Of a stretch of DNA of 64,000 bases, positions 54,215 through 57,360 are shown piece after piece. Each line of letters opens with the position of its first letter. Positions within the stretch are counted from its first letter, which is position 1. Under the pieces are notes generated by a model. It saw only the letters and a list, made by a program, of their open reading frames with translations, searched no databases and was not told where the DNA came from. The position numbers and the translations under genes were made by a program. This DNA comes from Streptococcus sanguinis SK1 = NCTC 7863 (lineage in GTDB: Bacteria > Bacillota > Bacilli > Lactobacillales > Streptococcaceae), in contig NZ_GL878507.1 in NCBI RefSeq assembly GCF_000194945.1, forward strand, positions 1 to 64,000, in the 5' to 3' direction.

Positions 54215-55564
54215 CTACCTCGCTAACAGATCGTAAATCTGCGTGATATTTTGGAGCAGAGTGGTCACGACAATTTTATCTCCAACTTGCAGATTGTCAT
54301 CGCCTGTAGGAAAGATAGCTTTACCTTGGCGGATAATGGCCGCAATCAGAACATCTTTCTTCAGATGAAGCTGAGACAGAGGAATACCAGTCATCTTGTT
54401 TTCTTCCTTGATTTGGAACTGCAGGGTCTCGATTTGGCCGTTGGCTACATGGTGCAGAGCTTCTAGGTTAGAGAACTGAGCATTGTAGCGACCGCGGATA
54501 AAGTGCATAACTGTATCAACGGCGATACCTTTAGGTGTCACGATGCTGGCAAAGTCTTGGTTATCAATGATTTCCAACAAACTAGTCCGGTTGACCTTGG
54601 TGATGTTTTTCTGCACACCCAGATTATTAAGGAACATAGAAGTAATGATATTTTCTTCGTCTACACCAGTCAGGGTAGCGATGGCATCAAAGTTATTGGC
54701 GCGTTCCTCCAGTAGGATATCCTTGGCAGTACCATCTCCATGGACAACATAGAGATCAGGAAATTCCTGACTGAAAAAGGTTGCCCGTTCATGGTTAGAT
54801 TCAATGACTTTGAGCTCGATTTTACTATTCTTGAGAATATTGAGCAGGTAATAAGCAATCTTGCCTGCCCCGATAATCATCAGGCTCTTAACCACTCTAG
54901 GTCGTACCATATTATGGAATTGAACGATGTCCAGGCGGTTACCTGTGACATAGATTTTGTCGCCGGCATCCAAAGTGAAGTCTCCATCAGGAATTTCCAA
55001 GTGCCCTTTTCTCTCAATGGCACAAACAATGATATTTCCAAATTTCTTGCGGAACTGGGAAATACTCATCTGGCAGAGATTGCTGTCTTCCTTGAGTTTG
55101 AACTCCATCAGTGCCACCCGGCCATTGGCAAAGTGCTCTACTGACAGGGCATTAGGGAAATCAATGATATTGGCAATATAGCGAGCAGTTAGGAGCTCAG
55201 GATTGACCACCAGCGAGAAGCCTAGAATGTTCTTCTCCTTAAAGTAAGGGTTGGAATATTCAGGATTACGCACCCGAACGACGGTTTCCTTAGCGCCCAT
55301 TCGTTTGGCCAGAACAGCTGAGACCATGTTGACTTCATCATGCTCAGTCATAGAGATGAAGATGTCACAGTGACTAACATCCGCTTGTTCTAAGATTTTG
55401 AAGTTGGCTCCATTGCCAGCAATACCGATAATGTCATAGCGCTTGGTAATCTGGTTGAGAACAGCCTCATCCTGCTCAATCAGGATAACATCATGATTTT
55501 CAGCCACTAAGGAGCGACAGAGGGCCGTCCCGACCTTCCCGCCACCGACAACAATAATTTTCAT
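54215..55564 (-). CDS. trkA: Trk system potassium transporter regulatory subunit TrkA
   Basis: A 449-residue cytosolic gating protein with two RCK_N/RCK_C units. The NAD(H)-binding motifs are MKIIVVGGGKVGTALCRSL at the N-terminus and LMIIGAGKIAYYLL near residue 225; the RCK_C domains lie near 140-215 and 370-449. I chose the ATG at 55564 with GGAGG about 9 bases upstream over the TTG at 55582. It forms an operon with trkH. C-di-AMP binding to the RCK_C domain is known for relatives and is possible here. Confidence 0.93.
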   Translation of the reverse strand: MKIIVVGGGKVGTALCRSLVAENHDVILIEQDEAVLNQITKRYDIIGIAGNGANFKILEQADVSHCDIFISMTEHDEVNMVSAVLAKRMGAKETVVRVRNPEYSNPYFKEKNILGFSLVVNPELLTARYIANIIDFPNALSVEHFANGRVALMEFKLKEDSNLCQMSISQFRKKFGNIIVCAIERKGHLEIPDGDFTLDAGDKIYVTGNRLDIVQFHNMVRPRVVKSLMIIGAGKIAYYLLNILKNSKIELKVIESNHERATFFSQEFPDLYVVHGDGTAKDILLEERANNFDAIATLTGVDEENIITSMFLNNLGVQKNITKVNRTSLLEIIDNQDFASIVTPKGIAVDTVMHFIRGRYNAQFSNLEALHHVANGQIETLQFQIKEENKMTGIPLSQLHLKKDVLIAAIIRQGKAIFPTGDDNLQVGDKIVVTTLLQNITQIYDLLAR

Positions 55565-55733: not shown

Positions 55734-55761
55734 TTGACTTGTAGGCTGAAAGTGTTATACT
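55734..55761 (+). promoter_or_regulatory. Strong promoter upstream of a probable small RNA
   Basis: TTGACT (55734-55739) and TATACT (55756-55761) are 16 bases apart, one of the best -35/-10 pairs in the window. Confidence 0.75.
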
Positions 55762-55767
55762 AAATGA

Positions 55768-55868
55768 GTACCTTCATTGGTTTACCTCAAACCTGTTGTG
55801 ATGTAAGTTAATGAAGCCTTAACCACGCTGTTTGCTGAGCTTGACTCCGGGCAGTGTGGCTATTTTTT
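55768..55868 (+). ncRNA. Probable small RNA or terminated leader upstream of trmL
   Basis: From the predicted start (about 55768) a compact structured RNA of about 100 bases follows. A long-range stem CTTCATT/AATGAAG (55772-55778 with 55810-55816) encloses the hairpin GGTTT/AAACC (55779-55793). An 8-bp stem CCACGCTG/CAGTGTGG (55823-55830 with 55852-55859) is followed by a run of seven T, a good intrinsic terminator. The trmL ATG lies 37 bases beyond. It may be an independent sRNA or a riboswitch-like attenuator; I do not recognise its class. Confidence 0.6.
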
Positions 55869-55904
55869 TATCTAAAGAAAAATACTAGGAAAAATATTCT
55901 TATT

Positions 55905-56408
55905 ATGAAAAATCATATTGTTCTTTTTGAGCCTCAGATTCCGCAGAATACCGGCAATATTGCCCGTACTTGCGCCGCGACTAATTCACCGCTTCACATC
56001 ATCAAGCCCATGGGTTTTCCCATTGATGATCGCAAGATGAAGCGGGCTGGGCTGGACTATTGGGATAAGCTGGACATCACCTATTATGAGAGTTTAGACG
56101 ATTTTATGGAGCAGATGGATGGCCGTCTTTATCTGATTTCTAAGTTTGCAGAGAAGGTCTATTCTGAGGAAAATTTTGCAGCAGAAGGTTCGCACTATTT
56201 TATGTTTGGTCGTGAGGACAAGGGATTGCCAGAGGAATTTATGCGTCGTCATCCAGAGAAGGCACTGCGTATTCCCATGAATGATCAGCATGTTCGCAGC
56301 CTCAATGTTTCAAACACAGTCTGTATGATTGTTTATGAAGCCCTGCGCCAGCAGAATTTTGCTGGCTTAGATTTGGTACACGAGTATGAAGCGGACAAGC
56401 TGAAGTAG
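55905..56408 (+). CDS. trmL: tRNA (cytidine/uridine-34 2'-O)-methyltransferase TrmL
   Basis: A 167-residue SPOUT methyltransferase, almost entirely the knotted domain ([20 protein letters not shown] at the start, [13 protein letters not shown], and [20 protein letters not shown] at the end). It methylates the ribose of the wobble base in tRNA-Leu. Length and start support the ATG at 55905; the in-frame start at 55854 lies within the upstream terminator and is unlikely. A weak AGGA is 13 bases upstream of the ATG. Confidence 0.92.
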
Positions 56409-56528
56409 CGGAATGAATGTATCTAAGCAGTTAATTTTCCTGATTGATAGAACACTAATGTTGAAACATTTTTGATTACATCAATCAAATTGCTTGCTCT
56501 GGCAGGCTTTTTTTGTTATGATAATGAT

Positions 56529-56670
56529 GTCTTCAGGGCAGGGTGAGATTCCCGACCGGCGGTAATTTTTGGATTGGAAATTTTTTCTCAATGCCAATTA
56601 AGTCCGCGAGCGCAAGCTGATGTGGTGAGATTCCACAACCGACAGTATAGTCTGGATGGGAGAAGACGAG
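56529..56670 (+). promoter_or_regulatory. FMN riboswitch (RFN element)
   Basis: All conserved RFN segments can be read: CTTCAGGGCAGGGTGA, ATTCCCGACCGGCGGT, GTCCGCGAGCG, GTGAGATTCC..ACCGACAGT, TAGTCTGGATGGGAGAAGA. The closing stem P1 is GTCTTC/GAAGAC (56529-56534 with 56662-56667). Bound FMN should turn off the riboflavin transporter gene 130 bases downstream. The expression platform (56671-56790) contains short inverted repeats and AAGCTTTTTT near 56744, but I cannot assign the switch helix. Confidence 0.97.
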
Positions 56671-56802
56671 AGGCAGTGAAGCATACTTGCCGTTTAATCT
56701 TTATTTAAGGGCTGAGCCTTATACTAAATAATCATTAGCTGACAAGCTTTTTTCAGTGGCCTTTCCGGCTTCTCTAATTTTTATAAATTGGAGGAACCTG
56801 TG

Positions 56803-57360
56803 ATGACAAATACTCGTAAGTTGGCGATTGTAGCAGTTTTATCTGCACTTTCATTTCTACTCATGCTTTATGAGATTCCCTTGATAACTGAGTTTCTAAA
56901 GTTGGATTTTTCAATTATTCCGATTTTACTGGCTTTGGTAGTCTTGGATCTAAAAAGCTCTCTAGCAGTGCTCTTGATTCGCTCTGTCTTAAAGCTAGCT
57001 TTGAATAATAATGGCGTAGGCACTCTAATCGGTCTACCCATGAATATACTAGCGGTAGCTGTCTTTGTTTGTGCTTTTTCCCTCTTGTGGAAAAAAAGAA
57101 AGAGCTTATCTAGCTATGTGAAGGCTTCCTTAGCAGCAACACTTGGTCTAACGATTACTATGATCATTCTAAATGTCATTTATGCTGTGCCTCTCTATGC
57201 GAGGTTTGCTGGTTTTGATATTAATAAGGCATTTGGTCTTTCCAAGTATCTGCTGACTATGATTGTCCCTTTTAACCTATTAGAAGGAGTAATCTGGGCT
57301 GCTGTCTTTTGGCTAATTTACAAACTCATACAGCCCGTTCTAAAACGCTATGAAAAATAA
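56803..57360 (+). CDS. ribU: Riboflavin ECF transporter S component RibU
   Basis: A 185-residue integral membrane substrate-binding subunit with about six spans that captures riboflavin and works with the shared ECF ATPase module encoded elsewhere. The pattern LAIVAVLSALSFLLMLYEIPL and LKLDFSIIPILLALVVLDLKS is typical. FMN riboswitch control supports the assignment. I chose the ATG at 56803 with GGAGG 9 bases upstream, over the TTG at 56788 that lies in the leader. It overlaps the PAP2 gene by 11 bases. Confidence 0.95.
   Translation: MTNTRKLAIVAVLSALSFLLMLYEIPLITEFLKLDFSIIPILLALVVLDLKSSLAVLLIRSVLKLALNNNGVGTLIGLPMNILAVAVFVCAFSLLWKKRKSLSSYVKASLAATLGLTITMIILNVIYAVPLYARFAGFDINKAFGLSKYLLTMIVPFNLLEGVIWAAVFWLIYKLIQPVLKRYEK

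Follow-up and report, generated by a model that had tools for sequence, protein, structure and literature searches.

The 23S-methyl RNA (Rfam RF01065) ranges across the Lactobacillales and was reportedly first described in a 2007 paper. Surveys of individual species, in the sections drawn on here, list transcripts of this family. In S. pyogenes M49, an 84-nt sRNA, sRNASpy490305, is labelled 23S-methyl, and the next list entry is an FMN element, the order also seen in the window studied here (PMC3542284). A further study of S. pyogenes tabulates 23S-methyl under 5'UTR RNAs and not under intergenic ones (PMC6431027), and in S. agalactiae genomes it is a core family (PMC6064168). In Enterococcus, E. 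faecalis sRNA_111 and E. faecium sRNA_106 are 23S-methyl RNAs validated by Northern blot (PMC7724050). Those sections of the four papers state no function for the RNA. Section 10 of PMC4448216 and the part of PMC6212727 consulted do not name it, and a term search of PMC10117718, PMC2864571, PMC2965389, and PMC3166299 found neither 23S-methyl nor methyltransferase terms.

We analyzed a window of 64,000 nucleotides from the start of a Streptococcus sanguinis SK1 contig, in which a structured RNA between trkA and trmL had been predicted from the sequence alone, as an unclassified RNA that could be a new sRNA or an attenuator of trmL.

Results

Identity of the RNA and its promoter

The RNA belongs to the known 23S-methyl family. 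The RF01065 covariance model matched over its full length, scoring 86.1 bits where the gathering score is 50 (E value of 1.2e-12 for the whole window); an antisense match of 29.6 bits, below the cut-off, is the mirror image of an inverted repeat. As in the described motif, there are two hairpins, the second a terminator, followed by an RNA methyltransferase gene, trmL, 39 nt downstream, and we saw no structural difference from the family. The original prediction assigned the RNA to no class and named a match to a described family as one outcome that would speak against it. Given the RF01065 match and the short homologues listed in S. pyogenes (PMC3542284, PMC6431027) and validated in Enterococcus (PMC7724050), which are members of the same Rfam family in other species, the RNA is already classified and is not a new sRNA. 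Of the 295 genomes in the window's order, 194 contained a match, 180 of them over the cut-off; in its class, 30 of 348 did, all 30 in the same order; and among 14 named controls the sole positive was Lactococcus lactis. The features of the locus are as follows.

54215 to 55564, minus strand: trkA, the divergent upstream gene (NF007033, 818.5 bits)
55734 to 55761, plus strand: promoter, TTGACT and TATACT 16 nt apart, with an extended -10 TG (sequence, consensus scan, homologues)
55768 to 55870, plus strand: predicted transcript of about 100 nt, with ends inferred from the -10 element and the U-tract
55771 to 55866, plus strand: RF01065 23S-methyl RNA, model positions 1-102 of 102 (86.1 bits)
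55772 to 55816, plus strand: hairpin 1, a long imperfect stem with a 9-nt loop containing CCUGUU (RF01065 alignment, fold, covariation)
55807 to 55823, plus strand: possible alternative helix, GUUAA/UUAAC, between the 3' arm of hairpin 1 and the linker, 5 bp here (pairing, covariation in relatives)
55823 to 55869, plus strand: hairpin 2, an intrinsic terminator with a U-tract (RF01065 alignment, fold, covariation)
55834 to 55848, plus strand: terminator apex, consisting of G, a 2-nt bulge (C plus A, C, or U), 3 bp, a loop, and C (homologues)
55905 to 56408, plus strand: trmL-type tRNA (Um34/Cm34) methyltransferase gene (TIGR00185, 186 bits, just short of the curated cut-off of 190.6)

The flanking genes thus bear out the placement in a trkA-trmL gap. 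The sequence also confirms the coordinates and the promoter first proposed: TTGACT (55734-55739), TG (55753-55754), and TATACT (55756-55761), with a 16-nt spacer and 10/12 consensus matches, form the top-scoring promoter-like site of the scanned stretch. Such sites are no more numerous than expected by chance, with 10 in 3 kb versus 6.5 ± 2.8 in shuffles and 1 in 261 bases versus 0.8. A TG followed by at least five of the six bases of TATAAT was present in 96 of 117 homologous loci, compared with 30 of 1,974 control windows from those same loci. By eye, f2, f3, f6, and f9 (we use f1 to f40 as handles for families) often have TTGCAA or TTGCAT rather than TTGACA as the -35 element ahead of the RNA. 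A consensus scan, the sole method applied to this question, found no further promoter-like site on the plus strand from 55761 to 55905.

Promoters of CiaR-dependent csRNAs carry a TTTAAG-N5-TTTAAG repeat. No such repeat was present in 55734-55868, even with up to two mismatches, as originally predicted, and the RNA is not a CiaR-dependent csRNA by this feature. A leader peptide was also considered and rejected. By eye, hairpin 1 offers a short reading frame with a TTG start in Streptococcus and f3; this start is not conserved in f2, and no ribosome-binding site was seen ahead of the frame.

As in the S. pyogenes list, an FMN riboswitch is close by (RF00050, 112.1 bits, 56525-56671, plus strand). 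It lies ahead of a 190-aa open reading frame (56788-57360) that resembles ECF-transporter subunits at below-cut-off scores and probably encodes a riboflavin transporter.

Structure, covariation, and the terminator apex

The fold of 55768-55872 has a predicted energy of -31.4 kcal/mol (z score of -3.6), and 1 of 200 shuffled sequences folded equally well. Two stems had been expected to be nested; both hairpins were recovered, but they stand side by side. The terminator hairpin occupies 55823-55859 and the U-tract 55863-55869. A simple terminator scan misses this terminator, probably because of its bulge, but comparative data support it, as first proposed. Compensatory base changes, which the original prediction had suggested looking for, were found in both hairpins. 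Among all 19 distinct Streptococcus sequences, 96.6% of cells were paired, and both sides had changed in 11 of 31 pairs (6 of the 16 counted in hairpin 1 and 5 of the 15 in hairpin 2), a result equalled in 0 of 500 shuffles. In 35 of the 51 distinct sequences of f1, f3, and f8, 95.3% of cells were paired, with both-side changes in 17 of 31 pairs, and again 0 of 500 shuffles did as well. Such tests overstate significance when, as here, the sequences are related. In the terminator halves of 51 of 97 distinct sequences from eight families (52 were picked and L054 was left out), 96.6% of cells were paired and both sides had changed in 11 of 16 pairs. A hairpin 1 and a terminator hairpin with compensatory changes are what RF01065 membership entails. 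The data therefore support the structured RNA first proposed, complete with a promoter and a terminator of its own, its length of about 100 bases being deduced from the predicted ends.

The tip of the terminator is conserved beyond its pairing. The apex is present in 91 of the 97 distinct homologues, its 3 bp being GUG/CAC or GAG/CUC, and the bulge is CA in 39, CC in 33, CU in 19, and CG in 0. A plain terminator would have no need of such a conserved apex, and we therefore infer that it is a binding site, a putative docking point for a partner that could be protein or RNA. An apex pattern matched 60 of 118 genomes, mostly at the 23S-methyl RNA itself among the matches listed, compared with 1 match for a reversed control pattern. 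Matches in G011, G089 (its second), and G098 have no tRNA nearby, and the second match in G256 reflects a single locus divided between two contig ends. A model of the terminator alone, whose E values are rough, matched 81 of 108 genomes, once in 76 of them (nine being the tRNA-linked copies of f7 described below) and twice in five (G010, G025, G049, G081, and G107). It missed G012 and G051, although both have the 23S-methyl RNA. Since matches were mostly single and more than one occurred in only 5 of 108 genomes, we rejected the idea that the apex marks a general class of terminators.

Gene order around the RNA

Gene order was compared in 117 of the 194 positive genomes, at one locus in each. 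The trmL gene came directly after the RNA in 85, followed via queG or ddl-queG in 23, and lay apart in 9 (in G069 and G175, queG itself was not seen and the order was deduced from distance and strand; ddl was seen in G069). Collinearity with trmL in 108 of 117 loci is what a cis-acting element would show, and it counts against an autonomous role. Eight loci, however, are not collinear and support autonomy. One or two inverted genes separate the RNA from trmL in G042, G275, G212, and G102, trmL is on the other strand in G189 and on the other strand about 5 kb off in G013, and it is on another contig in G167 and G061. The ninth, G002, has one same-strand gene in between. RNAs in these nine loci score from 92.3 bits (G042) to 47.3 bits (G102), three of them below the cut-off, and five of the eight noncollinear ones score low (G013, 53.8; G189, 51.8; G061, 49.4; G167, 48.4; G102, 47.3), which counts against autonomy.

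Upstream, where rlmA and trkA were sought within about 430 to 1,500 bases of flank, an rlmA-type gene on the same strand was present in 75 of 86 non-Streptococcus loci and, in the flanks covered, in 0 of 31 Streptococcus loci. The rlmA-type call passes the Pfam Zn_ribbon_RlmA model and falls below the cut-offs of the NCBIfam 23S rRNA methyltransferase models; in the window's genome, an rlmA-like gene is on another contig. In Streptococcus, trkA was recognized in 20 of 31 loci and is divergent there. The upstream rlmA is kept at six of the nine RNAs detached from trmL, and 3 of 117 loci (G189, G061, and G102, with an upstream flank of 430 bases in G061) have neither trmL in collinear position nor rlmA upstream. 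No neighbor gene was invariant across the 117 loci. Because rlmA-type and trmL genes flank the RNA in most families but neither always does so, a purely cis role for 23S-methyl appears doubtful from gene order.

The frequent rlmA neighbor raises the possibility that the element is a mere terminator or insulator of that upstream gene, with hairpin 1 incidental. We regard this as very unlikely, as the RNA has its own conserved promoter and a covarying hairpin 1, and the Streptococcus loci have no rlmA in the flank covered, with trkA divergent where recognized.

Regulated attenuation and the loop of hairpin 1

The main rival to an autonomous RNA is signal-responsive attenuation of trmL, in which hairpin 1 and the linker would switch pairing partners and the TrmL protein or another signal would set termination. 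Rfam types RF01065 as Cis-reg, the terminator lies 39 nt before trmL with no other promoter-like site ahead by the consensus scan, and trmL is collinear in most loci, so that this part of the original prediction has some footing, although the RNA is also retained where trmL is elsewhere (8 of 117 loci not collinear, two of them with trmL on another contig). An alternative helix could provide the switch. Across f1, f3, and f8 it was 87.3% paired, with both-side changes in 5 of 9 pairs against a shuffled mean of 2.6 (reached in 13 of 500 shuffles) and 19 doubly changed cells against 6.0 in shuffles, figures that relatedness of the sequences can inflate. In an Enterococcus-like RNA, forming it costs just 5.6 kcal/mol. 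In the window, by contrast, the helix is 5 bp and costs 10 kcal/mol relative to the main fold; it overlaps the terminator stem by only 1 to 3 nt, and the terminator still forms in constrained folds.

Pairing of the 3' arm of hairpin 1 with the native linker, compared with shuffled linkers, also divides the families. Native values were stronger in f3 (-9.6 versus -3.2), f8 (-8.6 versus -4.1), f2 (-6.2 versus -3.1), f1 (-4.0 versus -2.1), and f9 (-4.1 versus -2.7) and no better in f5 (-2.6 versus -2.7), f6 (-2.3 versus -2.7), and f4 (-0.4 versus -1.4); in f6, f9, and f4, the native linker is outdone by linkers taken from other families. On this comparison, an antiterminator was rejected as a family-wide feature. 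The second helix hints at regulated folding in some lineages and is not a classical antiterminator, and we consider regulated attenuation of trmL a possible but rather doubtful account of the RNA.

A base-pairing sRNA acting in trans through the CCUGUU loop is a similarly tentative reading, which we hold to be doubtful. In the 35 sequences of f1, f3, and f8, the unpaired CUGUU is invariant and the preceding C nearly so, and in some genomes the RNA is detached from trmL. However, f2 and most of f6 have a different loop (CCAUCAG), f4 and most of f9 have an unrelated one, and no target was found, the start of trmL being the region compared. Against the trmL ribosome-binding region, the loop paired no better than shuffled sequences in f1 (-5.67 versus -5.76) and f9 (-3.94 versus -3.99) and slightly better in f3 (-7.38 versus -6.73), f8 (-6.54 versus -5.64), and f6 (-5.00 versus -4.60, three loci).

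Hairpin 1 might instead imitate a tRNA-Leu anticodon arm and, as a decoy, bind TrmL in an autoregulatory loop. In the window, its CUCAAA equals 6 of the 7 nt of the tRNA-Leu(CAA) anticodon loop, CUCAAAA, but the match spans the junction of stem and loop and is confined to Streptococcus, being absent from the hairpin 1 loops of the other families that adjoin trmL. The details of TrmL recognition in the part of PMC9508554 consulted, with A35 as the key nucleotide and a role for A36-A37-A38 that is either direct or exerted by way of i6A37, also count against such mimicry, which we consider highly improbable.

A slot shared with tRNA-Gly(UCC)

The terminator model also matched weakly, at 33.9 to 36.5 bits, in nine f7 genomes that have no RF01065 match, always just behind tRNA-Gly(UCC) and ahead of queG, with trmL following queG in the three loci long enough to see it. 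These nine loci were chosen by their terminator match. A second sample was taken from queG neighborhoods irrespective of the terminator, comprising 62 of the 78 queG genomes outside the order, with upstream flanks of 243 to about 2,300 bases. There, tRNA-Gly(UCC) lay ahead of queG in 11 of 62. Five of these (f22, f36, and f40) have a matching terminator (24.9 to 36.8 bits) immediately after the tRNA, with trmL about 1 kb past queG, six (f20 and f24) have no terminator match behind the tRNA, and three further loci carry a similar terminator (24.7 to 33.0 bits) with no tRNA directly in front. Over both samples, 14 of 20 tRNA-Gly(UCC)/queG loci have a terminator that scores 24.9 to 36.8 bits with the model built on the RNA, nine of them having been picked for it, and in the eight loci that are sufficiently long trmL follows.

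These units differ from the RNA in that a tRNA stands in place of hairpin 1, in the 6 of 20 loci without a matching terminator, and in their displayed terminators, which have no bulged apex. The likeness of the promoters was judged by eye only. ARAGORN found no tRNA in the window RNA, and no tRNA sequence is recognizable in the body of the RNA that would make it a pseudo-tRNA-Gly. Local alignment to tRNA-Gly(UCC) gave a mean of 15.8 in f1, compared with 12.0 for shuffled sequences and 12.3 for other tRNAs, and 10.9 to 14.0 in other families, compared with 11.8 to 12.6 for shuffled sequences; by alignment, any similarity of hairpin 1 to tRNA-Gly would be weak at most. The window's genome has 27 tRNA loci, and the terminator model never rose above 14.9 bits at any of them. 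In Streptococcus, the RNA precedes trmL without queG, and the shared place therefore concerns the family and not the window's locus.

Other tRNA genes are followed by similar terminators. Extra copies lie behind tRNA-Glu-Thr-Tyr-Gln in G010, G025, and G049 and behind tRNA-Lys in G275 and G212. The same bulged-apex terminators are seen in L169, L170, and L206 (genus g10, tRNA-Glu-Thr-Tyr-Gln) and in L172 and L173 (genus g57, tRNA-Lys). In L274 (f15), tRNA-Leu(UAA) and tRNA-Leu(CAA), the kinds that are TrmL substrates, lie upstream of a similar terminator and queG, which may be chance. In L259 and L276, outside the order, a short tRNA-free stretch ahead of queG is bounded by promoter-like sequence and a similar terminator; these are possible unrecognized small RNAs.

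On the basis of 20 loci, with moderate bit scores, the RNA unit and the tRNA-Gly(UCC) gene of some other Bacilli probably have a terminator in common and perhaps also an origin. One scenario is that the common ancestor of most Lactobacillales had a tRNA-Gly(UCC) gene ahead of queG-trmL and that this gene gave way to, or degenerated into, the two-hairpin RNA, which would have kept the promoter and terminator of the tRNA and gained the bulged apex as a binding site. We offer this ancestry tentatively, as conceivable though not probable.

Discussion

We lean, with modest confidence, toward reading 23S-methyl as a small-RNA gene in its own right, with a terminator that some polymerase passes on its way into trmL. 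The conservation of promoter, hairpins, and terminator, the gene orders, and the loss of trmL linkage in some genomes come from sequence comparison, and the short RNAs reported in S. pyogenes and Enterococcus favor this reading; the entry of 23S-methyl under 5'UTR RNAs (PMC6431027) weighs against it. The extended -10 promoter would drive synthesis of a presumably stable RNA of about 100 nt that folds into two hairpins and is stopped by the intrinsic terminator. This RNA would probably act through its bulged apex with a putative partner. Where trmL lies directly behind, its mRNA may arise from read-through of the terminator; trmL is probably dependent on this because no other promoter-like site precedes it in the gap, and the RNA gene would thus also set the basal level of TrmL.

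Mimicry of 23S rRNA was rejected as a basis for action. In the one RNA compared, that of G018, the longest word shared with its own 23S rRNA on either strand was 10 nt, against a shuffled mean of 9.9; the assembly that contains the window yielded no 23S match.

This analysis adds the trmL-type identity of the downstream gene, the gene orders with an extended -10 promoter and a bulged terminator apex that are mostly retained, and the presence of tRNA-Gly(UCC) in the slot before queG in some other Bacilli. The gene orders shift the RNA from a leader of a methyltransferase gene toward an autonomous small RNA. A terminator and slot in common with tRNA-Gly(UCC) give this widely kept RNA a testable origin and, if the ancestry is true, 23S-methyl would illustrate how a small RNA can arise from the cassette of a tRNA gene.
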